32,649 nt of DNA from an uncultured Ruminobacter sp. GTDB lineage: Bacteria; Pseudomonadota; Gammaproteobacteria; Enterobacterales; Succinivibrionaceae. The position numbers and the translations under genes were made by a program. The stretch's first letter is position 1. The number at the start of each line of letters is the position of its first letter. The stretch lies in NCBI GenBank assembly GCA_902764345.1, contig CACWVT010000018.1, positions 1 to 32,649 of the forward strand. The letters run 5' to 3'. Shown piece by piece: positions 6,686-20,004 of the stretch. The notes beneath the pieces were generated by a model. The model ran no database searches, was not told the origin of the DNA, and saw only the letters and a program-made list of their open reading frames with translations.

Positions 6686-7807
6686 CTATAACTTGTTTAG
6701 GATTTCCTGGTCTCCAAACACAGCTCTTGCTGCGATTTTTCTCTGTTCCTTGTTTTTATTATCGATGTTTAGGTTAATAATAAAAAGTGTGAGGGCTAAA
6801 CCTAACGGGATTGTTGCCCAAGCCCAGCTTGAGGCAAAAAAGACAATGACGGACAGTATTAATGAGGCACCAATGCCTAAACCGAAGCGTTCATCCATTG
6901 TTTTAAGAGCCGGATCAACCGGATGAGTCCAGTCATTTGTATTCTTATTTACTCCGGAAGAAACGAAGTAGAACTGCTGGTTACAGTATGAATACTGGGT
7001 AAACCAGAATGGAACCAAAACTGTTTCGCTTTTATCCAAAAATCGTGGATCAAGTTCGACGCTCGTGGAACACTTTAACTTGCGGAATCCTTCGGGAGCT
7101 ATTTCTCTTGCTCTGTTTTCCGCAATGCGTCCGGCTATGGTTTGACCATAGCTGTTCCAAAGGGAACGGGAATCCTGATTTGCATTTAATACTTTAAATT
7201 TTGGTTCATTTTGATCATCTGAATTCTGAACCATTGATGGTTCAAAAACAGCACCGTTTTGATTTCCAATTTCATTGTTAACTGCGAAATTATCAATGAA
7301 TTGTGCAATGCCTGATGGGAGTCTGTTTTCTTCTGAATCTGAAGCATTGCCCCATGCAGAGATCAGAATTTTAAAATTACCGTTTGTGTTGCCACTGTGA
7401 GGGCGGTATTCGGTGTTTGAACCTGATTTAATCGGTACTTCGCAGTTCCATGAGCAGTAAAAGTTTCCTTGATAGGTGAAATATGGAACATAGAGCTTTT
7501 CAATTCTGTCAAAGGATAACTGGTTGAATATATCCAGAGGAACATCACTGGTGGTTGTAAGATGTGAAATGATCTGATCACTGAAACTTTCAACATCTTC
7601 TTTAAACGGGATAATAAAAGTCGAATTTCCGGACTTTCTTTCATAAAATTCCTTCTCGCTTGACGATTCTGAATTTTTGAACGGATTCAGAAATTTCTTT
7701 TTACAAAAAGGGCATGTAACAGTATCGGCGTTCCTGTCGAAATCAGTGATGCTCTGCCCGCATCCCGAGCACTTTAATTCTTTGAGAAATTCTTCGTTAC
7801 GACTCAT
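6686..7807 (-). CDS. zinc-ribbon protein with C-terminal membrane hairpin (YdjG-like)
   Basis: This is the third gene of the SPFH operon. The N-terminus has a four-cysteine zinc ribbon (Cys13-x2-Cys16, Cys32-x2-Cys35). A long middle region of about 260 residues is polar and of unknown fold. Residues about 309-344 form two closely spaced membrane segments, followed by a basic tail. The design resembles Bacillus YdjG, a zinc-ribbon membrane anchor that works with the SPFH protein YdjI; this is by architecture, not proven homology. The start has a TGGAAA ribosome site and follows the four-TM gene by 10 bases, so the genes are surely one operon. The exact role is unknown. Confidence 0.7.
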   Translation of the reverse strand: MSRNEEFLKELKCSGCGQSITDFDRNADTVTCPFCKKKFLNPFKNSESSSEKEFYERKSGNSTFIIPFKEDVESFSDQIISHLTTTSDVPLDIFNQLSFDRIEKLYVPYFTYQGNFYCSWNCEVPIKSGSNTEYRPHSGNTNGNFKILISAWGNASDSEENRLPSGIAQFIDNFAVNNEIGNQNGAVFEPSMVQNSDDQNEPKFKVLNANQDSRSLWNSYGQTIAGRIAENRAREIAPEGFRKLKCSTSVELDPRFLDKSETVLVPFWFTQYSYCNQQFYFVSSGVNKNTNDWTHPVDPALKTMDERFGLGIGASLILSVIVFFASSWAWATIPLGLALTLFIINLNIDNKNKEQRKIAARAVFGDQEILNKL

Positions 7808-7817
7808 TTTATTTCCA

Positions 7818-8498
7818 TTACAATAATTTTAATTTGTTATTTCTGTTGGTTAATGCTGTTCTAATAGATTCAAACATTGAATTATAATCAGCCTGTTTAC
7901 CTGCTTTAATCTGATTTACTATATCGGCAACGGTGTTGCGGATCTCCTGCTCATACTCATATACTTCCGGTCTGGAGGCTGTCGGGCTGGTTCTGATGAT
8001 GTCCGCCAGCTGATTCAGCTTTTTTTTCTGTTCCTGATCAGTAAACAGGTTGGATACGCTTTGGAGATCAAAAGCAATGGTTCTCATGTTGCAACTGTCC
8101 AGAGACTGTTGAGCAATCATGTCTGCTGCGTTTTTATTTGCGAGCATGTATGTGAGTGTGGCTGCTGCTTCAATCATAAGAAGCACCAGCATTATAAGGA
8201 ATGTCTGAACCCCGAAAGACTCCGGATTAATAAACATAATCAAGAACCCGACAATGAATATTACGACAAATCCCAATGAGGTCGTCAGGTAGACCACATA
8301 GTTCGCCGCCTCCGTATTTTTCTCCTTTGGTTTAAAATAAGGAAGCATTATCATCACGATGTAGGACAGGTTAACAAATAAGCACGATATCCAGGCTGCT
8401 GCATGCATATCGGCAGAAAGTACGGTTACCAAAAATACAACGTTGAACGTTATGGGAAACACCATCTTTAATAGTGTTGAAATAATTTTAGAATTCAT
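7818..8498 (-). CDS. four-TM membrane protein of the SPFH operon
   Basis: This 226-residue protein has four hydrophobic segments within residues about 8-120 (around 8-28, 35-55, 70-90 and 96-118), then a cytoplasmic helical tail of about 105 residues. The tail includes Gln/Lys-rich and Glu-rich stretches that could form a coiled coil. It resembles no enzyme family I can name. Its place between an SPFH protein and a zinc-ribbon membrane protein points to a shared membrane complex. The ribosome site is weak, and the gene is 46 bases after the SPFH stop, so translation may rely on coupling. Confidence 0.65.
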   Translation of the reverse strand: MNSKIISTLLKMVFPITFNVVFLVTVLSADMHAAAWISCLFVNLSYIVMIMLPYFKPKEKNTEAANYVVYLTTSLGFVVIFIVGFLIMFINPESFGVQTFLIMLVLLMIEAAATLTYMLANKNAADMIAQQSLDSCNMRTIAFDLQSVSNLFTDQEQKKKLNQLADIIRTSPTASRPEVYEYEQEIRNTVADIVNQIKAGKQADYNSMFESIRTALTNRNNKLKLL

Positions 8499-8544: not shown

Positions 8545-9669
8545 CTACATATTGGCAAGAATATTCTTTTTTACTGCGTCATATTCTTCCTGTTCAATCA
8601 GGCCTGCATCAAGCATTTTTTTGAGCTTGGCCAGCTTTTCAAAAGGATCCTCCGCAGATGAGTCTGTTTTTGGTGTTGAACTGTTGCCGGGCACGGCTGA
8701 GGCCGACTGAGATTCTTGAACCGTGGCCATGCCGCTAAATATTCCCTTTGATATTTCTCCGATTACGCTTCCCGCAGCCATTCCCATGCCCAGACCTGCA
8801 CCTGCACCGGCAAGACCGCCACTGTTTGGATTATTGGCTATATTCTGAATGATTTCCATGCCTTTAACAAGACGGTAATTATCGCCAAGAATATTCAGTT
8901 CACGTGAGCGGACATATGCGTCTTCAAGTTTCTGACGGTTTGGATCGTCATCAGGTATATCGAGTGCGTGAATGTTAAATGACTGCAGATTCAGACCGTA
9001 GTCTTCAAGAATCTGGGCAATTACAGGTGTTAGTACGTTTGCGAATTCTTCGAGTCTGGAACAGACACCGAGAATTTCCTCATGTGAATTTTTAAGAGCG
9101 GTTGCAATGGCTGATTTAATTTTCTGTTGGAATTGTGAGTAGAAATAATAATCCAGATCTTCCGGAGTAAATTCTCTTACATTACCGCTCAGTTTTGATA
9201 TGAAGAGACCTGCGTTGCCTACTGTAACCTTGTATGACCCTCTTCCTCTCACAGAAGTTTGCAGGGCCTGGACGGGGTCGCGCAACTGGATTGGAGAATC
9301 AGTACCCCAAAGAATTTCATTGCTTAACGCTTTTCTGACAAAGTAGATTTCTGATGTGTAGACAGACTGGCCTCCGCTTAGAAGGTTTCTGAGATTGCTG
9401 AGAAATGGGTAATTTTCAGTGCTTAGTTCGTATCGTCCGTTGTCAAACTCCTGAACAATTTCTCCGTTCTTGATGAATATTGCTGACTCACCGGGATTTA
9501 CAATCAGAACAGAATTTGTATTGAAATCCATCACTGGGGACTTCCATATCAGGAGATTTGGAGAGCCTTCATTGGCTATTGCATTCAGAATATGAACCTG
9601 CGAAGTGGATCTGACTGAACCACTATTCTGGGGGGCATTTGCGCCTCTATTCATACTAAATATTGACAT
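8545..9669 (-). CDS. SPFH-domain protein with C-terminal SHOCT domain (YdjI/virion-core-like)
   Basis: This first gene of a three-gene minus-strand operon encodes 374 residues. Residues about 60-245 match the SPFH (stomatin/prohibitin/flotillin) group known as 'virion core protein'/YdjI: an opening 'ILIWKSP'-like strand, a Gly-Glu-x-Ala-Ile-Phe segment, and the later helical region. A Gly/Ala-rich stretch near 285-305 follows, and the last 35 residues form a SHOCT motif (Leu-x-Lys-Leu-Lys-x-Met-Leu-Asp-x-Gly-Leu-Ile-x-x-x-Glu-Tyr). In Bacillus, YdjI recruits PspA to membranes together with YdjG and YdjH. No PspA gene is in this operon. AGGT upstream of the ATG supports the start. Confidence 0.8.
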   Translation of the reverse strand: MSIFSMNRGANAPQNSGSVRSTSQVHILNAIANEGSPNLLIWKSPVMDFNTNSVLIVNPGESAIFIKNGEIVQEFDNGRYELSTENYPFLSNLRNLLSGGQSVYTSEIYFVRKALSNEILWGTDSPIQLRDPVQALQTSVRGRGSYKVTVGNAGLFISKLSGNVREFTPEDLDYYFYSQFQQKIKSAIATALKNSHEEILGVCSRLEEFANVLTPVIAQILEDYGLNLQSFNIHALDIPDDDPNRQKLEDAYVRSRELNILGDNYRLVKGMEIIQNIANNPNSGGLAGAGAGLGMGMAAGSVIGEISKGIFSGMATVQESQSASAVPGNSSTPKTDSSAEDPFEKLAKLKKMLDAGLIEQEEYDAVKKNILANM

Positions 9670-10043: not shown

Positions 10044-10598
10044 TTATTCATGGCTGCAGTCGCAGCTCTGTCTGAACAGTGCGTCAATGTCTCTTAATGA
10101 GATGCCTTTCTGCTTCAGAGCACCGAGTACGCTCTTGAGCAGGTCTGCGGCATTCTCTCTGGTGCTGTCCGCATTGAACTTTGACAGAAGCTTTGCGATG
10201 TCGCCTTCTGTAACTTCAGCAGCTTCAGGATTGAATACGGCAATGTTTGAAGCTTCGAGAGGCAGGTGTCCGTCAAAGCAGCTTTCAGTGCCGCGGTGAC
10301 AGGTAGGGCCAATAGGATCTGCCGCAATAAGCAGACAGTCATTGTCACAGTCTGCGGTTATGGCCTTCAGATTAAGATAATGACGTGATTCCTCACCCTT
10401 GGTCCAAAGTCTCTGCTTCGTACGGCTGTAGAATGTTACCTTGCCGATTTCCAGAGTCTTATCAAGGGCTTCAGGATTCATGAAACCCTGCATGAGCACA
10501 ACACCGGAACGGTAATTTTGCACGATAACGGGAATCTGGTTGTTAACCTTCTTCCAGTCAAGATCTTCCGGTTTAAAATTTAAGGTATAGTTAGTCAC
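10044..10598 (-). CDS. hisI: HisIE: phosphoribosyl-AMP cyclohydrolase with decayed PR-ATP pyrophosphatase domain
   Basis: The N-terminal HisI domain (about residues 1-115) looks intact: Trp-Thr-Lys-Gly-Glu-Glu-Ser, Asp-Cys-Asp-Asn-Asp and the zinc-binding Gly-Pro-Thr-Cys-His. It opens the ring of phosphoribosyl-AMP. The C-terminal HisE domain, which should first remove pyrophosphate from phosphoribosyl-ATP, is shortened to about 65 residues. Its first helices are gone, the family Gly-Glu-Glu-x-x-Glu reads Thr-Glu-Gly-Asp-Ile-Ala, and the Glu-x-x-Asp partner reads Asn-Ala-Ala-Asp. The tail (Ala-Asp-Leu-Leu ... Gly-Ile-Ser-Leu-Arg-Asp-Ile) still aligns with HisE. Total length is 184 against about 200 in E. 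coli. The gene overlaps hisF by 8 bases. Confidence 0.88.
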
Positions 10599-11364
10599 GA
10601 ACGATTACTCCTTCATTTCTGAGGTAGTCCTTCAGTTCAGGGATGTGAATCAGGCCCTTGTGGAATACGGATGCTGCAAGACAGCCGTCGCATTCCGCTT
10701 CCTTAAAGCCGTCCCTGAAGTGAGACATTTCACCGGCACCGCCGGAGGCGATGAGAGGCACGTGGGCAAGGCTTCTGATAAGCTTAAGCTGCTTCAGGTC
10801 ATATCCCTTGCGCATGCCGTCCTGATTCATCATGTTAAGTACGATTTCACCGCATCCGCATTCCTGAACCTTTTCCACCCATTCAGGAGTGGTCCACTTG
10901 GTGATAAGGGTTCTGTTTACGTCACCGGTATACTGCTTAACGAGATAACGGTCGGTGGCTTCGTCGTAGTATGAGTCGATACCGCAGACAACGCACTGAA
11001 CACCGAATCTGTCGGCGAGTCTGGTAATTAAGGTCGGATCGGCTAGGGCAGGTGAGTTGATTGAAATCTTGTCTGCACCGTATTCCAGAATTCTTGCTGC
11101 ATCCTCAACACTCTTGATACCGCCGGCAACGCAGAAAGGAATATTGATTACCTCGGCGATTTTACGTACCCAGCTCTTGTCCACGACGCGGGCATCGCTT
11201 GATGCGGTGATATCATAGAATACCAGTTCGTCAGCACCTTCGTCGGCGTAGCGCTTTGCCAGCTCAACGATGCCGCCCATAACCTCATGATTTCTGAACT
11301 GAACTCCCTTTACTACAACGCCGTCTTTAACGTCGAGACACGGAATTATGCGTTTGGCCAGCAT
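10591..11364 (-). CDS. hisF: imidazole glycerol phosphate synthase subunit HisF (cyclase)
   Basis: HisF uses ammonia from HisH to convert PRFAR into imidazole glycerol phosphate and AICAR. The (beta-alpha)8 barrel begins [11 protein letters not shown], with catalytic Asp11, and the second catalytic Asp is in the Cys-Gly-Ile-Asp-Ser segment near residue 130. Phosphate-binding Gly-rich loops (Ala-Gly-Gly-Ile and Ala-Ser-Gly-Gly-Ala-Gly) are present. The length of 257 residues is normal. It overlaps hisA by 19 bases and hisI by 8, indicating coupled translation. Confidence 0.96.
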
Positions 11365-12086
11365 GTTACAGCCTCCTTGACAGTGAATTTGCCTTCAAGC
11401 AGTGAACGGCCGATGATAATGCCTGCGGCACCGCTGTCGCGAACTGCGGCAACGTCATCAAGGCTGCCGATGCCGCCTGATGCCAGAAAATCAATGTGAG
11501 GGAACAGATTGTGCAGATCCCTGTAAAGTTCTACGTTAGATCCCTTCAGGGTACCGTCACGAGAGATGTCGGTACAGAGCACGTATTTCAGACCTACCTC
11601 AGCGAAGTCCTTAATAAGGTCCTCGATGGTTACGGCACTGTTTTCCTGCCAGCCCTTGATGGCAATGAATCTTTTGCCGGTGGCAGGATCAATGTTTATG
11701 TCGAGGGCGAGAACGATGTGTTCGGCACCGAATTTGCGGAACCAGTCCTTTGCCATCTTAGGATCCTTAACGGCTGCTGAGCCTACGACGACGCGTTCAG
11801 CACCGATGCCCAGCAGATCCTCAACATCCTTTTCGGTACGGATGCCGCCGCCGATTTCAACCGGTACTGGGGTGTTTCTGATGAGTTCGGAAATAACGCC
11901 AAGCTGTCTCTTGGAGGTATCCTTGGCACCGTCAAGGTCTACAAGGTGCAGGAATTTTGCACCTTCATTAACATAGAGATCGAAACGTTCCTGTGGATCG
12001 GCATCGTATTCGGTCTTGCGTGAGTAATCGCCCTGATAAAGACGGACAACCTTGCCGCCTATAAGGTCAATTGCAGGTATAATCAT
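11346..12086 (-). CDS. hisA: ProFAR isomerase HisA
   Basis: HisA isomerises the ribose of ProFAR to give PRFAR. The 246-residue barrel has the start Met-Ile-Ile-Pro-Ala-Ile-Asp-Leu with catalytic Asp7, the second catalytic Asp in Leu-Ala-Leu-Asp-Ile-Asn, and phosphate loops Ile-Gly-Gly-Gly-Ile-Arg and Ala-Ser-Gly-Gly-Ile-Gly. It is related to HisF by ancient duplication. Its end overlaps hisF by 19 bases; the start is 11 bases after the hisH stop. Confidence 0.96.
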
Positions 12087-12097
12087 GTCGTGTTCTC

Positions 12098-12712
12098 CTA
12101 GAGGTCAAGGAAGTTTTTAAGAAGTTTATGGCCGATAGGACCTGATTTCTCAGGGTGGAACTGGGTTCCGAAGAAATTATCCCTGTTCACAACGGCGGAG
12201 AAGGTCTGTCCGTATGTGGTGGTGGCAGCAGTATGTCCGGTTACGTCCAGTGCGTAGGAGTGAACGTAATAGAAATATGAACCGCTCGGAATGTCCTTGA
12301 AGAGAGGGCATGAACCGTCGTGATCAACCTGATCCCAGCCCATGTGCGGAAGCACCAGTCCGGGAACCTTCATAAGGCGGACGCCGCCGTCAACTATGCC
12401 GAGACATTTAACCGCATCAGTTCCCTGACTCATGCTTTCTTCGGAGAAACCGGCCAGCATCTGCATGCCGAGACAGATACCGAGAAGCGGCTGGTGAACA
12501 TTAACAATCAGATCGTCAAGGTGTCTTTCCCTGATTGATTTCATGGCTGCAACAGCAGAGCCCACACCGGGGAGAATAAGCTTGTCGGCATTTCTGATGT
12601 CACTTTCCCTGGCGCTGATGATGCAGTCTGCATCAAGTCGGTTCATGGCAAACAGTACTGATGAGAGGTTGGCTACTCCGGTGTCGATTATGGTTACTTT
12701 TTGTTTGCTCAT
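12098..12712 (-). CDS. hisH: imidazole glycerol phosphate synthase subunit HisH (glutaminase)
   Basis: HisH is a class I glutamine amidotransferase that supplies ammonia to HisF. The triad is complete: Cys80 in Gly-Ile-Cys-Leu-Gly-Met-Gln, and His186 and Glu188 in Gln-Phe-His-Pro-Glu-Lys-Ser. The oxyanion motif Pro-Gly-Val-Gly near residues 48-51 is present. Length is 204 residues. Its ATG shares one base with the hisB stop (TAATG), a typical coupled junction. Confidence 0.96.
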
Positions 12713-13827
12713 TAAAGTACTCCTTTGCTTGAAGGAAGTTCGTTTCCTTCCTTTTTCAGAGCCATGCGCAGTGCTCTGCCGAAGGCTTTGAAGAGGGCTT
12801 CAACCTGATGATGGGTGTTGCCGGTGGTAACCTTCATGTGCAGTGTGAGACCCATGGCGTATGCCAGACTGTGGAAGAAATGCGGAACCATTTCTGTTGA
12901 GAGTTCTCCGACCTGCTGACGAACGAAGTCGGCATCACAGCTGAATACACAGTAAGGTCTTCCGGAAATATCCATGCAGGCATCAACAGGATGGTTCATG
13001 AGAGAATCATCAGGGAGACCGTCAAGTTTAGCCTCAACCTCATCCATGGCAACGGCAAAGCCGAATCTGCCGATGCCTCTCTTGTCACCGAGAGCCTGTC
13101 TCAGGGCAGAGCCGAGAGCAATGCCCACGTCTTCAACTGTATGGTGTTCGTCAACGTGAAGATCGCCTGTAGCCTTGAGCTTCATGGTGATGCCTCCGTG
13201 GGTGGCTATCTGATCCAGCATGTGGTCAAAGAAGCCGATTCCTGTGGAGATTTCGCTACCGCCACTGTGGTCAAGATCCACGAAAAGATCGATTTTGGTT
13301 TCATTGGTATTGCGTACCACGTGAGCCGTGCGCGGAATCTTTGTGAGTCGTTCGGCAATCGCAGTCCAGCTGTTTGTTTCCGGATTGTAGCGTTCTCCGC
13401 CGATACCCATGTTTTTGGCGAGTTCCATGTCGGTTTCACGGTCGCCGATGACGAAGCTGTGTTCCTTGTCCACTACTCCCGGTACCAGATACTTGCCGAG
13501 AAGTCCGGTTTTCGGCTTGCGGCAGGCACAGTTTTCATGCGGGAAATGAGGGCAGATGAGAACCTCTTCGAAGGTAACGCCTTCAGAAGCCAGAACGTCA
13601 AGCATCAGCTGATGCGGTCCCTTGAAGTTTTCGTATGGAAGGGAATCGGTGCCGAGACCGTCCTGATTTGTTACCATAACCAGCTTGTAGCCGGCATTCT
13701 GCAGAGTTTTAAGACTTGAGATTACGCGAGGCTCGAATTTGAGCTTTTCAAAAGAATCAACCTGCTTGTCAATGACAGGTTCTTCGATGATTGTACCGTC
13801 ACGGTCGATGAAAAGATATTTTTCCAT
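12712..13827 (-). CDS. hisB: HisB: histidinol-phosphatase / imidazoleglycerol-phosphate dehydratase
   Basis: This bifunctional 371-residue enzyme matches the enteric HisB fusion. The N-terminal HAD phosphatase half carries Asp8-Arg-Asp10-Gly-Thr and a zinc cluster (Cys-Pro-His ... Cys-Ala-Cys-Arg). The C-terminal dehydratase half carries both metal-binding repeats, His-His-Thr-Val-Glu-Asp and His-His-Gln-Val-Glu-Ala. It catalyses steps on either side of HisC. It is separated from hisC by an unusual structured 135-base spacer, but its own end overlaps hisH. GGAAAG lies a few bases before the ATG. Confidence 0.96.
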
Positions 13828-13962: not shown

Positions 13963-15039
13963 TTACTGCTTAATTGAATGAAATACGCTTAATACCTCAT
14001 TCATTTCTTCTTCGCTGCCGATTGTTATGCGTACGCAGTTCTGCAGTCTGGTCTTGGTGTGGAAGTCTCTCAGAATGATACCCTTGTCCGCACAGGCTTT
14101 GAAGAGGGCTTCTCCGTCCTTAAAGCGGATGAGGATATAGTTTGCATTTTCATAGAATACTTCCTGAACGAAGTCCAGCTTTTTCACCTCTTCCACGAAT
14201 CTGTCGCGGCGTTCCTTGAGTTCGGCAACCCTTTCCTTCATGATTGCAATACCATGAGTGCTGAGAGCCTGTACCGCTATCTGGGCAACAGGGTCGGCGA
14301 TAGGATAAGGATCGATAACCTTGAGCATCAGCTTGATTACTTCAGGATTTGCCAGGGTGAATCCGCAACGGATGCCTGCCAGTGCGAAGGCCTTTGACAG
14401 GGTGCGGGTTATCACCAGATGGTCATAATCCTTCATGAATTTTACCTTGGTGGCTTCTGGACAGAACTCAATGTATGCTTCGTCAACAACCACAAGGCAT
14501 CTGCCCTTTGTGAATTCCAGAATTTGGGTAAGCTTTTCATCATCAACGACATTACCGGTAGGGTTGTTTGGTGAACAGATGAAGATAACCTTGATGTTAT
14601 CACTGCCGTTTTCCACTGTGTTTCTGATGGCTTCAACATCCGGCTGGAAATCGTCGGCAGGCGGAACGTCAACTGTCTTTACGCCGGCGGTGTCCGCACT
14701 GATGGAGTACATGCCGTAGGTTGGGGGGCTGATGAGAATCGCATCCTTTCCTGGTTCGCAGAAGGTGCGTACCAGAAGACCGATTGATTCGTCACTGCCG
14801 CGGGATACCAGAATGTTTTCTTCGGCAACGCCTGAGTAGTCGGCGTAGGCTTCGATAACTTCAGGAGGCTGACATTCAGGATAGCGGTTAAGAGTGATTG
14901 ACTTCATCAGGAAGGTAGCACTCTTCGGAGCTTCGTTGGCATTAAGAAAGTTGTGTCCCTTTCCGCCGATGCGTCTGGCTGAGAGATAAGGGGTAAGCTG
15001 TCTTACCCTTTCCGTAGCAAGTTCAGTAATGGTACTCAT
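13963..15039 (-). CDS. hisC: histidinol-phosphate aminotransferase
   Basis: HisC is a PLP enzyme that transfers the amino group from glutamate to imidazole acetol phosphate. The fold-type I landmarks are present: Ser-Pro-Asn-Asn-Pro-Thr-Gly-Asn, Val-Val-Asp-Glu-Ala-Tyr, and the PLP lysine in Thr-Leu-Ser-Lys-Ala-Phe-Ala-Leu-Ala-Gly. The Arg-Gly-Ser-Asp-Glu cofactor loop is also seen. The 358-residue length is normal. It starts one base after the hisD stop. Confidence 0.96.
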   Translation of the reverse strand: MSTITELATERVRQLTPYLSARRIGGKGHNFLNANEAPKSATFLMKSITLNRYPECQPPEVIEAYADYSGVAEENILVSRGSDESIGLLVRTFCEPGKDAILISPPTYGMYSISADTAGVKTVDVPPADDFQPDVEAIRNTVENGSDNIKVIFICSPNNPTGNVVDDEKLTQILEFTKGRCLVVVDEAYIEFCPEATKVKFMKDYDHLVITRTLSKAFALAGIRCGFTLANPEVIKLMLKVIDPYPIADPVAQIAVQALSTHGIAIMKERVAELKERRDRFVEEVKKLDFVQEVFYENANYILIRFKDGEALFKACADKGIILRDFHTKTRLQNCVRITIGSEEEMNEVLSVFHSIKQ

Positions 15040-15040
15040 C

Positions 15041-16336
15041 TTATTTTGCTCCCCTGAGAATGTCCATACGGATGGTTACCGCTCTCTTGTGGGCGGTGAG
15101 GCCTTCCGCATCAGCCATGAGTTCAACGGTACGGCTGAGATTGGTTAAGCCTTCGGTTGTTGCTTCCTGCACGGTATAACGGCGCAGATAGTCGGCAAGT
15201 CCCAGTGATGAACAGGTCTTTGCATAGCCGTAGGTAGGCAGGGTGTGGTTGGTACCGCTGGCGTAGTCGCCAACTGATTCAGGAGTCCAGCCGCCGATGA
15301 AGATTGAACCTGCATTGCGCAGATAAGGCAGCAGGGCACGCGGTTCCTCTGTTTCCACAATCAGGTGTTCAGGAGCGTAGATGTTGGAGATTGCGCATGC
15401 TTCCTCAAGAGATTCGCAGACAATGGCGATACTCTTTTCCAGGGCTCTGTTGGCAATGTCCTTTCTGGAAAGTTCCTGCACCTGCTTTTCAACTTCGGCA
15501 ACAACTTCGCTTCCGTAGTTAGGATTAGTTGACAGAAGCACAACCTGTGAATCAGGACCGTGTTCAGCCTGTGACAGAAGGTCGGATGCCGCAAAAGCCG
15601 GATTGGCGGATTCATCAGCGATTACAAGAACTTCTGACGGGCCTGCAGGCATGTCGATTGCCGCACCGCGGAAATCAGCGCTTACCTGCTTCTTTGCTTC
15701 GGTCACGAATGAGTTGCCAGGTCCGAAAATCTTGTTAACCTTAGGCACGGTTTCGGTACCGTATGCCATTGCGGCAATGGCCTGAGCACCGCCGACGGTG
15801 TAGATGTCGTTAACGCCACAGAGGGTAGCGGCATAAACGATAGCATCTGATACCGGTGGAGGTGAACACAGAATCACCTTAGGGCATTCCGCAATCTGGG
15901 CTGGCACGGCAAGCATGAGCACGGTACTTACCAGCGGAGCGCTGCCGCCGGGTACGTACAGGCCGACGCTGTCAATAGGATGCGTGTGGAGTTCACAGGT
16001 AACGCCCGGTCTGGTGTTTACCACTACCGGAGCAGGTTTCTGAGCCCTGTGGAACATTGAAATGTTGTCATAGGCGTTTTTAAGGGCTGTCTTGAGCTCC
16101 GGATCCACTCTGTCACATGCTGATTTTATTTCATCAGCTGTAAGTTTAATATGATCAGATTCCAGACGATCAAACTTGCGGGAGTATTCCAGTAAGGCTT
16201 CGTCACCGCGGTTACGAATGTTGCTGATTATATCGGCAACAAGCTTGGCCTTACTGCCGTCATCGGCAGTGGCGGGACGGGTGAGTATGTCTACCCGTTC
16301 CTGTTCATTTAAATCTTTCCAGCTAACAATTTTCAT
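15041..16336 (-). CDS. hisD: histidinol dehydrogenase
   Basis: HisD performs the last two NAD-dependent oxidations of histidinol to histidine. Zinc ligands are in Leu-Leu-Ser-Gln-Ala-Glu-His-Gly-Pro-Asp, in Val-Gly-Asp-Tyr, and in Leu-Thr-Ala-His-Lys-Arg near the C-terminus. The catalytic Glu-His pair is in Tyr-Ala-Pro-Glu-His-Leu. The signature Ala-Gly-Pro-Ser-Glu-Val-Leu is present, and 431 residues is typical. It starts 4 bases after hisG. Confidence 0.96.
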   Translation of the reverse strand: MKIVSWKDLNEQERVDILTRPATADDGSKAKLVADIISNIRNRGDEALLEYSRKFDRLESDHIKLTADEIKSACDRVDPELKTALKNAYDNISMFHRAQKPAPVVVNTRPGVTCELHTHPIDSVGLYVPGGSAPLVSTVLMLAVPAQIAECPKVILCSPPPVSDAIVYAATLCGVNDIYTVGGAQAIAAMAYGTETVPKVNKIFGPGNSFVTEAKKQVSADFRGAAIDMPAGPSEVLVIADESANPAFAASDLLSQAEHGPDSQVVLLSTNPNYGSEVVAEVEKQVQELSRKDIANRALEKSIAIVCESLEEACAISNIYAPEHLIVETEEPRALLPYLRNAGSIFIGGWTPESVGDYASGTNHTLPTYGYAKTCSSLGLADYLRRYTVQEATTEGLTNLSRTVELMADAEGLTAHKRAVTIRMDILRGAK

Positions 16337-16340
16337 AATG

Positions 16341-17237
16341 TTACTTCAGCATCTTTTCAATAGGTAATACGAGGATTGAGCTTGCTCCGAGGGCCTTAAT
16401 CTTTTCCATGGTTTCCCAGAAGAGGGTTTCGGTGGAAACTACATGAATTGCCACGTGAGTGCTGTTACCTGCGAGCTCGAGAAGGGTTGGGTTCTCAGCA
16501 CCCGGAAGAAGGGCAGTGATTTCCTTAACCTTGTCCTTTGGAGCGTGAAGCATGATGTACTTGCTACCGTGAGCCTGAATCATGCCGTCAATACGTCTGA
16601 TGAGAGTATCGGCAATAGCCTGCTTTTCCGGATAGAGTTCCTGATCTCTCTGAATCAGTACGGCCTTTGACTTGTAAACTACCTGAACTTCCTTGAGACC
16701 GTTGGCTTCAAGGGTGGCACCTGAACTTACCAGGTCACAGATGGCATCGGCAAGACCTGCTCTAGGAGCAACTTCAACTGAACCGGTTAAAAGTACGTTC
16801 TTGAAGTTAACGCCCTGCTCGTCAAGGTAACGCTTGGTGAGGTTAGGGTAGGTGGTGGCAATCTTTAAGCCTTCAAGACTCTGAACACCCTTCCATTCCT
16901 GTTCAACAGGGATGGCGAGAGAAAGACGGCAGCCGCCGAAGTCAAGCTTGCGAACCTGCTTATATCCTACAGGAAGACCTTCCTGCTGACGTTCAAGCAT
17001 TGTTTCTTCAAGCACGTTTTCGCCTACAACACCCCAGTCAACAACATGGTCCATGATAAGACCTGGAATGTCGTCATCACGTACACGGAGAATGTCGATT
17101 TCCATGTTTTCAACGTGAGCGATGAGTCTGTCCTCGCGCTTGTTGATCTTTAAACCGCAGCTTTCTAAAAGTTCTGTGGTTTCAACACTGAGACGACCCT
17201 TTTTCTGCATGGCGATACGAAACTTTTTGTTAGACAT
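16341..17237 (-). CDS. hisG: ATP phosphoribosyltransferase, long form
   Basis: HisG starts the pathway by joining ATP to PRPP and is feedback-inhibited by histidine. At 298 residues it is the long form with a C-terminal regulatory domain, so no HisZ is needed. It keeps Lys-Lys-Gly-Arg-Leu near the N-terminus, Asp-Ile-Pro-Gly-Leu-Ile and the PRPP-binding region with [10 protein letters not shown]. It is the first structural gene after the leader and attenuator. Confidence 0.96.
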
Positions 17238-17378: not shown

Positions 17379-17432
17379 CTATTTAGGACGATGATGGTGG
17401 TGATGATGTAACTGACTTAACAACTGATACAT
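17379..17432 (-). CDS. hisL: his operon leader peptide
   Basis: A 17-codon frame encodes Met-Tyr-Gln-Leu-Leu-Ser-Gln-Leu-His-His-His-His-His-His-Arg-Pro-Lys. Six consecutive histidine codons make its role clear: when histidyl-tRNA is scarce the ribosome stalls here and blocks the terminator hairpin. Enteric hisL has seven His. It lies 36 bases after the -10 box of the promoter and 71 bases before the attenuator stem. Confidence 0.95.
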   Translation of the reverse strand: MYQLLSQLHHHHHHRPK

Positions 17433-17649: not shown

Positions 17650-20004
17650 TTATGCTGATTCGGCTGCGGAATTTTTAATCTCATCCTCACTGATGATTCT
17701 GTTTAGTCTGTCGGTTTCCCTCAGACTGATGCTGCGGGTCTTGTTTTTGAGCAGTCCCATGAACCTCAGTATGTCTTCAGCACTCGGCTTTATTCCCCCG
17801 AGTCCAAGATTGTCATTATTTTTGATAAGTCTGATGGTTGCGATTATTTCCTGTCTGCTCACGTATGAACTGTACCTGATTTCACGGGGACAGAATCTGG
17901 CACTGTCTCTGTCGCCGCAGAGCTTCCTGTTTCTTGAGTATACCGGGCGGTGAGGAATGTATATGAAGTCTTCGATATCGGTAATCAGGCGGTTTTTTTC
18001 AATAACGTGATTGATTTCCTGAAGAACCTTCAGCCGGTGTTCGTTTTTAAATGATGTCCCCGTCTGCTTGCAGATGTGGGCGAATCTTCTGAGAATGCAT
18101 TCCTTGCTTACGGGGGCTTCTGTCCTGATAAGCATGTTCACGGCACATGAAATTTCCTGAATGCTGAGTGCCGTAAAATCCGGTGTTATTGCCAGAGCCT
18201 GAAATACACCTTCGAGAAATGCCGGGGTATAGGCCGCAATCTTCAGCTGTGAGTGGTTGATGCGTACGCCTTTGGCATAGACCGCAGTGTCTGAATCGTA
18301 TTCCGGTCTGCTTTTTTCCGGTTTTTCTTCGGATTTCGGTGTTTTGCCGTCGTTGGCAAAAAGCTCTATAACCTCAAAATTTCTGTTCTCCGGAGCTTCT
18401 GCCAGATTTAGGAAGGCTCCCGTATCCTCGCTGTAGAAACTGAATTCCAGAAAACCTTCGGGAAGTATTCCGGATATTCCTATGCTGGCATCATCTCCCG
18501 GTTCGGTGAAGCTGATGTTTTCAAGATCGTCTTTTGAAAGATACATCTGAGGATCGCCGGCATTGTCATCATTGACGGTGCTGACTTTGGACAGGTCGAT
18601 GACAATGTCTGATTCGGTGTCCTGTCCGGCTGCAGATTCACTGCTCCCGTCTGACACTGCTTTTTCCTGATTGGTAACACCGGTATCCCGGCTTTCACAT
18701 GACGTTTTAAGCAGATCCGATGCCAGAGGCGTGACCGGAGAACTGTCCGTGAGATTCATCAGCGCCTTTTCAAGCGGCAGGGACGTGTCGGGGAGGTTTT
18801 CCGTGCCATGGTGTTCGTCGTTGGCTGCGGGCATGTCGGATGCAATTACATCGGAGTCGGGACTTCTGCCGTTAGAGGTTCTGTTCTTCGTTCCGGATGT
18901 CCCGAAGGAGGTTATCAGACCGTCGTCGTTATCAGGAAGTTCCTGTGAATCATCACGTCCGCCGGACATGATGTTAAGCTCCATGGTATCGAACACTGCC
19001 GGAATTATTCTGAGATAGCCGAAGCAGCATCCGAGCCAGGTGGCCAGCAGTTCCCTTTCATCAGTATTGTTACATTCTGAGGCAACCTTCGACACTACGG
19101 AGCGGCTGATACCGAATCTTTTCAGTTCGGAAATTGATTTCAGATATATGAAAAGAATGGAGTAGTTTTTTGAGTACAGGGTCGCAAGTGTGTGCAGGAA
19201 TTTTTCGTACTCGTCCAGTTTTTCAATCCTGACAAGAACATCGTTAAGCGAGATGTCGGGATTTTCTTCATGTATTTTAAGAAGCGTGGCGTAAACCGGA
19301 ATTTTCCGCCATTCATTGTTGTATTCAGGAGGTCTCTGATCAGAACGGTTTACGGCGTAATGATATATTTCCAGCATGTCCATGACATATCCGATATCGC
19401 CGTCAGGATAGTTTCGCGTGCGTCGATACATCGTTATCAGGGTAAGCAGTGTTCTGTATATCAGATTCGTGCGGAAGTACGGGATTTTCTTTTTTATCAG
19501 ATGGTTGGCCACGAGCAGCTCTCTCGGGGGATCCGTGCTCAAATCCAGAAGATTGTATGAGTTAATTGTAGGAGGAAGATCGCACAGCCCCATGAGAACT
19601 CTCATTGCGGCGATGCCTGCAGCACTGTTTTTCCTGACATTGTAGCTGTTGAAATTCTGAAATATGCCCTGGTATCCGGTGAGGGAATAGAATCTGAATT
19701 CTGGGAATCGCTTTTTAAGCTGTTCTCCGGCTCTGAAGTTGAGGGCTATGATGTATTCGATTTCCGATATGCAGACGTCAAGACCTCTGTCATCATCCCG
19801 TTCCTCGAGAAGGGATATGAGCAGAAACACTTTGTCAGTGACATTTTTGAAAAAGAAATTCTCCTCCAGCAGATCCTGATAGTTTGCGGTATGAGGATCC
19901 GCCGAATTGATTTCATTGAGCTCTCGCGGGGAAATATATATTTCCCCGAGACTTCTCAGCTGATTCAGCTTAAAAGTGTCAATAATAGCCAGATATCTGG
20001 ACAT
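17650..20004 (-). CDS. uncharacterised 784-aa protein with DUF3320-like C-terminus
   Basis: I do not recognise the whole protein. Residues about 1-340 look helical and soluble, with no signal or membrane segment. Residues about 345-560 are an acidic, Ser/Asp/Thr-rich linker. Residues about 585-784 resemble the DUF3320 tail of large DUF4011-type helicases: a segment with Arg-Thr-Glu-Ala-Pro-Val, Leu-Arg-Arg-Phe-Ala, then Asp-Phe-Ile-Tyr-Ile-Pro, Arg-Asn-Arg-Lys, Pro-Arg-Glu-Ile, Ser-Arg-Gln-Glu-Ile-Ile-Ala-Thr-Ile and a final Phe-Met-Gly-Leu ... Arg-Ser-Ile-Ser-Leu-Arg-Glu. That fits a winged-helix-like nucleic-acid-associated module, but no helicase motifs are present. The match is from memory of the family pattern. 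The gene stands alone between hexR and the his promoter. Confidence 0.6.
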   Translation of the reverse strand: MSRYLAIIDTFKLNQLRSLGEIYISPRELNEINSADPHTANYQDLLEENFFFKNVTDKVFLLISLLEERDDDRGLDVCISEIEYIIALNFRAGEQLKKRFPEFRFYSLTGYQGIFQNFNSYNVRKNSAAGIAAMRVLMGLCDLPPTINSYNLLDLSTDPPRELLVANHLIKKKIPYFRTNLIYRTLLTLITMYRRTRNYPDGDIGYVMDMLEIYHYAVNRSDQRPPEYNNEWRKIPVYATLLKIHEENPDISLNDVLVRIEKLDEYEKFLHTLATLYSKNYSILFIYLKSISELKRFGISRSVVSKVASECNNTDERELLATWLGCCFGYLRIIPAVFDTMELNIMSGGRDDSQELPDNDDGLITSFGTSGTKNRTSNGRSPDSDVIASDMPAANDEHHGTENLPDTSLPLEKALMNLTDSSPVTPLASDLLKTSCESRDTGVTNQEKAVSDGSSESAAGQDTESDIVIDLSKVSTVNDDNAGDPQMYLSKDDLENISFTEPGDDASIGISGILPEGFLEFSFYSEDTGAFLNLAEAPENRNFEVIELFANDGKTPKSEEKPEKSRPEYDSDTAVYAKGVRINHSQLKIAAYTPAFLEGVFQALAITPDFTALSIQEISCAVNMLIRTEAPVSKECILRRFAHICKQTGTSFKNEHRLKVLQEINHVIEKNRLITDIEDFIYIPHRPVYSRNRKLCGDRDSARFCPREIRYSSYVSRQEIIATIRLIKNNDNLGLGGIKPSAEDILRFMGLLKNKTRSISLRETDRLNRIISEDEIKNSAAESA

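Follow-up and report, generated by a model that had tools for sequence, protein, structure and literature searches.

A HisE remnant in a complete histidine operon of Ruminobacter and a probable separate PR-ATP hydrolase in Succinivibrionaceae

The hisIE gene and its operon

The DNA analyzed here, called the window below, is a stretch of 32,649 nucleotides from an uncultured Ruminobacter sp. (assembly GCA_902764345.1, contig CACWVT010000018.1). It holds a complete histidine operon, hisGDCBHAFI, and the last gene of this operon, hisIE, is the subject of this work (Table 1). The gene encodes an intact HisI domain, the phosphoribosyl-AMP (PR-AMP) cyclohydrolase, and behind it a tail of 74 residues at the place of HisE, the domain that hydrolyzes phosphoribosyl-ATP (PR-ATP) to PR-AMP. 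HisI residues D83, C84, D85, D87, C100, H101 and C107 are invariant in 39 aligned rows, and we take the zinc ligands of the enzyme to lie among them. HisI of Ruminobacter is under strong purifying selection, with ratios of nonsynonymous to synonymous substitution rates (dN/dS) of 0.01-0.06 in six pairs within the genus, dS being above 1 in five of the six.

The tail is matched by no HisE model of Pfam or NCBIfam, and its PF01503 score is 12.1 bits where the cut-off is 21.3. The first-pass annotation, made from the DNA sequence alone, had described a C-terminal domain shortened to about 65 residues; the shortening is real, as the first half of HisE has been lost, and the length is 74 residues. 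The replaced motifs that it had read recur in the alignment with full HisIE rows, in which T-E-G-D-I-A stands opposite G-E-E-x-x-E and N-A-A-D opposite E-x-x-D. Five acidic columns are invariant in all 20 full HisIE rows (E152, E153, E156, E172 and D175 in E. coli numbering), and these conserved residues of the E-E-x-x-E and E-x-x-D motifs are the metal ligands. The window's tail retains two of them, E152 and D175, with some uncertainty of alignment near the first three, while none of the five is preserved across all seven tails compared.

Comparison of the tail with a HisE profile gives 7.7 bits, a value reached by none of 1000 shuffles, and the same holds for two further Ruminobacter tails; four tails of three other genera do not score significantly (60, 81, 85 and 189 of 1000 shuffles). 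Profile-profile alignment matches the tail to HisE over 30 columns close to its end (P 0.0044, HHalign probability only 7.9%), in agreement with the earlier remark that the last 30 residues still align with HisE. Judged by this weak but real likeness, which is significant for the Ruminobacter tails only, and by its place behind HisI, the tail shares descent with HisE. That it still hydrolyzes PR-ATP is very unlikely, as the first-pass annotation had also supposed, because it has kept only the second half of the domain and a minority of the conserved acidic residues. Since the tail is present in four Ruminobacter genomes and in four genomes of three other genera, it is not the product of a single sequencing slip.

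Table 1. Features of the histidine operon in the window.
Feature	Position	Strand	Basis or remark
hisIE	10044-10598	-	184-aa open reading frame, GTG start
HisE remnant, residues 111-184 and stop	10044..10268	-	first half of domain lost
HisI (PR-AMP cyclohydrolase) domain, residues 1-110, intact	10269..10598	-	PF01502, 104 bits
hisF	10591..11364	-	PF00977
hisA	11346..12086	-	PF00977
hisH	12098..12712	-	PF00117
hisB (phosphatase and dehydratase)	12712..13827	-	PF00475 and HAD-type matches
hisC	13963..15039	-	PF00155
hisD	15041..16336	-	PF00815, 548 bits
hisG, long form	16341..17237	-	PF01634 and PF08029
HisG codon CAT (His) at the place of E. coli Gly65	17046..17048	-	row comparison
Histidine operon leader (attenuator), Rfam RF00514	17267..17403	-	65.3 bits, gathering score 49
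Leader peptide MYQLLSQLHHHHHHRPK, six consecutive histidines	17379..17432	-	read from sequence

A family scan found no extra domains on the his genes of the window. The nearest solved relative of its HisG is the E. coli enzyme (1h3d). Named relatives are R. amylophilus DSM 1361, with 83% identity, and Ruminobacter sp. RGIG8895, with 96%. The next gene downstream of hisIE (8545-9669, minus strand) encodes an SPFH/Band 7 protein with a SHOCT-like tail slightly below cut-off, and beside it lie open reading frames 6686-7807 and 7818-8498, neither with a family match over cut-off. Upstream of hisG, a frame of 784 residues (17650-20004, minus strand) is without a match in Pfam or NCBIfam, and relatives occur in L059 and L060, the two other Ruminobacter operon loci that were read.

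HisE and MazG in the genome, the family and the order

The first-pass annotation had proposed that another HisE or a MazG-like enzyme fills the step, and the genome searches speak against this. In the window's own genome, 92% complete, the tail is the sole match in a search with PF01503, so that no second HisE was found, and MazG (PF03819) gives no match at E up to 10. Neither domain is present over cut-off in three other Ruminobacter genomes.

The same picture extends to most of the family. Among 56 Succinivibrionaceae genomes, with assemblies 59-99% complete, HisI is found in 51 (there is no match in G013, G035, G040, G046 and G053), and the HisE family PRA-PH is over cut-off in six, all from two genera, g12 and g13, which have full HisIE. 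The remaining 45 HisI-bearing genomes are without PRA-PH over cut-off: eight carry a tail (genera g1, g7, g10 and g14), and in 37 the match covers HisI only. Proteins read from 23 of these 37 end 126-144 residues from their likely start, two of the frames reading longer upstream. MazG is over cut-off in only two of the 56 genomes, the HisE-bearing G049 and G037, the latter being the sole such genome among the 49 outside g12 and g13. Of 21 family loci, 20 have the full set of eight his genes; the exception is that of genome G055, where masked sequence covers hisA along with parts of hisH and hisF, and an apparent HisH-HisA-HisF fusion there was rejected as an artefact of the masked N stretch.

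In a sample of 119 genomes from the order, HisG is present in 105, of which 98 are outside Succinivibrionaceae, and all of these 98 have PRA-PH over cut-off, although in G091 the sole match, of 31 bits, is to a frame of MazG-like appearance. Six of the seven family genomes in the sample, all with HisG, are without it, and none of the 14 genomes lacking HisG has it. Candidatus Haliotispira (L083) was considered as a further HisE-less case and rejected, its HisI continuing into a HisE-like domain.

In a maximum-likelihood tree built from 42 concatenated HisG-HisD-HisC rows, the genera with HisIE, those with a tail and those with HisI only form one group each. The tail and HisI-only groups are sisters with moderate support (88/76), and one loss of HisE activity is therefore enough to account for the pattern.

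From PR-ATP to PR-AMP without HisE

PR-AMP is probably still made in Ruminobacter, because the his genes are complete, HisI is under purifying selection and an attenuator precedes hisG. The same operon, the leader score and the low dN/dS of HisI make it unlikely for Ruminobacter that the organism simply needs histidine, which had been the other suggestion of the first-pass annotation. The Rfam leader family His_leader is over cut-off in all eight tail genomes. In the 56 genomes it has 13 such matches, one per genome; eight of the 13 directly precede a located hisG. As a selected HisI needs PR-AMP, either another enzyme hydrolyzes PR-ATP or HisG makes PR-AMP directly.

We consider it probable that HisE was lost in a single ancestral event, that the rest of the pathway was kept, and that an unlinked hydrolase which is neither HisE nor MazG does the step. 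This loss of HisE catalysis would date to the ancestor that Ruminobacter shares with most other Succinivibrionaceae. An inactive C-terminal stub would have stayed on HisI in Ruminobacter and three further genera, the other HisE-less genera being left with HisI alone. PR-ATP would then be converted to PR-AMP by, for example, a Nudix-type or other housekeeping pyrophosphohydrolase encoded elsewhere. Most likely histidine is made, and most likely it is a separate hydrolase that does this step.

Several observations weigh against this explanation. No replacement enzyme emerged from the domains of the his genes, the neighbor of hisI, the His_leader matches or the HisE and MazG searches; RdgB, Maf and other all-alpha pyrophosphatases were not searched for. 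None of the 37 HisI-only genomes has a His_leader over cut-off, so the attenuator argument covers Ruminobacter's group only. A second His_leader that would mark the replacement was not found with strict filters and at most 50 candidates scored per genome. HisE-less G037 does have a MazG domain (L050, G037:C188:3184-3396, 33.1 bits, in a 121-aa frame). An incomplete assembly may hide HisE in one genome, though hardly in 45. G013 has no HisI match at 92% completeness, and some family members may therefore have lost the pathway. Finally, a published growth medium contained 30% rumen fluid; in titles and abstract openings, with few subscription papers covered, we found nothing decisive on histidine-free growth of Ruminobacter or on missing HisE in Succinivibrionaceae.

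In the HisI-only branch, which is without the HisE stub, the attenuator seems to have been lost too or to have changed beyond the Rfam model. Of nine weak second His_leader matches retrieved, four (all but L266, L267, L268, L281 and L282) were read and rejected, showing either no run of His codons in a leader or a His-rich coding stretch. The gene directly behind hisI in nine of the 21 family loci, all HisI-only, was also rejected as the replacement, being a TerC/Alx membrane protein, an assignment for which the family was checked in L063 only and ten members read alike. This gene, of the metal homeostasis type, is found in L063 (3645-4679), L064, L065, L066, L067, L070, L072, L073 and L074, and a relative of it lies about 7 kb away in L061 (g2).

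Beyond HisE and MazG, the replacement candidates screened were Nudix genes, and they give a special case of the separate hydrolase. According to it, the native Nudix enzyme NudJ, encoded beside mnmA, would hydrolyze PR-ATP to PR-AMP, which in this specific form we regard as unlikely. E. coli NudJ takes nucleoside tri- and diphosphates to monophosphates, and NudJ-like genes occur in 45 of the 49 family genomes that do not belong to g12 or g13, the seven of these two genera having none. However, one loss of nudJ in g12/g13 accounts for this pattern, the nudJ-mnmA locus of the family is an ordinary one that HisE-bearing E. coli has as well, and E. coli hisE mutants are auxotrophs despite NudJ. 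A NudC-like Nudix group is likewise confined to HisE-less genomes among those sampled, yet it is not in all of them (absent in G055 and G012), and G045, 95% complete, has HisI and no NudJ match. Nudix genes in general number 5-10 per family genome outside g12/g13 versus 2-6 inside. NudJ is thus a lead suggested by gene distribution, not evidence of function. In L195 (G000:C9:9900-17200), G023:C34 and G021:C70 a stretch of about 6 kb holds three Nudix genes, and g1, g7 and g14 have an extra NudJ-like paralogue, which adjoins the first in g1 and g7 and is on another contig in g14.

The direct route is about as improbable as NudJ. In HisE-less Succinivibrionaceae HisG would be a phosphoribosyltransferase of AMP (or ADP) instead of ATP, marked by the change of Gly65 to His; with AMP it would give PR-AMP directly, so that no PR-ATP would be formed and no diphosphatase would be needed. 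All eight enzymes were compared between the HisE-less rows, 18 in number, and up to 24 rows of genomes that have HisE (G091, with its weak PRA-PH, included). Every HisE-less row has H at residue 65 of HisG, and the 24 others have G (23 rows) or N (one row). Sites at least 95% conserved with HisE and altered in nearly all HisE-less rows are HisG G65, HisD L395, HisH C10 and HisA Q200, and of these G65 of HisG alone has the same replacement throughout the 18. Outside HisG, an outgroup-conserved residue is gone from every HisE-less row at two sites, HisD 395 (A/V) and HisA 200 (I/L; the G055 row is unreliable), and at neither is the replacement uniform. Because of the masked N sequence the hisA and hisF rows of G055 are unreliable, and the partial-change counts of both enzymes are inflated.

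The HisI-only rows carry further changes in HisG. R38, which is R in 22 of the 24 HisE-bearing rows, has become H in all 12, and these 12 have also lost S172 and E178; R38 matches, by eye and via shared motifs, Arg56 of P. arcticus HisG, described as catalytic in the accessible part of PMC9734150. Among outgroup-conserved sites, 8 of 130 switched in HisG in the HisI-only genera compared with 17 of 625 in the other enzymes, a borderline enrichment, tested post hoc (one-sided Fisher P 0.05). According to the accessible part of PMC10795190, ADP is a true substrate of short-form HisG, which favors the direct route, and ADP inhibits the long form, which counts against it. In the parts of the HisG literature open to us there was no report of AMP use. 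R54, unchanged in 18 of 18 HisE-less rows, also tells against the change of substrate, as by eye it matches Arg73 of P. arcticus, the holder of the ATP gamma-phosphate in the available text of PMC10998830. In the tail rows R38 and S172 are unchanged in six of six and E178 in five of six, which leaves G65 nearly the sole mark in HisG of Ruminobacter.

The HisE-less set is moreover one clade, so the H65 correlation counts as one event and not many. A search of 369 genomes of the class with the H65 pattern gave 14 matches, of which HisG only in the window's own genome, the HisG-bearing genomes among the 369 being uncounted; an independent origin of H65 was not seen there. The HisI-only hisG rows (L061-L067, L069, L070, L072-L074) also have S18T, S172C/V, E178Q/H/A and H232N in 12 of 12, and Glu74 is replaced by Gln in nine of the 12.

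Slightly less credible still is that the pathway is idle, with histidine taken from the rumen and hisE the first gene to go. The habitat fits uptake of histidine, published proof of histidine-free growth was not found, and both the attenuator missing over cut-off from HisI-only genera and G013 would fit a pathway being lost; for Ruminobacter the intact and selected operon described above stands against it. Least probable is continued PR-ATP hydrolysis by the shortened tail in a dimer with HisI: the tail has a dN/dS of 0.16-0.27, computable in four of the six Ruminobacter pairs and below 1, which means that it is not free of constraint, and two acidic residues are retained in the window, but no acidic ligand is common to the tails compared and the HisI-only sister clade has no tail at all.

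Comparison with known systems

Few pathways are as well known as histidine synthesis, which is regarded as almost invariant. Here most of a family with cultured members keeps its his genes without recognizable HisE and with almost no MazG, which implies that either a PR-ATP diphosphatase awaits discovery or the pathway is one step shorter. In this rumen group a missing hisE may be an unreliable basis for calling auxotrophy. A study of gut genomes predicted to be histidine prototrophs puts HisE in brackets among the needed genes (PMC9026213, accessible text), which seems to mean that its absence was accepted in predicted prototrophs; the accessible main text has no words beginning with Succinivibrio or Succinatimonas and no MazG.

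HisIE of E. coli and Shigella (6j22) has the same gene place at the end of the operon and the same HisI domain, and the Ruminobacter tail sits where HisE does in these enzymes. The difference is that they have a full HisE with five acidic residues, whereas Ruminobacter has a stub of 74 residues with two. Desulfovibrio, like Ruminobacter, is without HisE in an otherwise complete pathway, and there a PR-ATP diphosphatase of the MazG family (DVU1186) replaces it, as stated in the available part of PMC5764234, while in Ruminobacter's own genome no MazG was found. Replacement of HisE by a MazG relative is therefore known, and what appears to be new here is a PR-ATP diphosphatase step displaced or bypassed with neither HisE nor a MazG relative.
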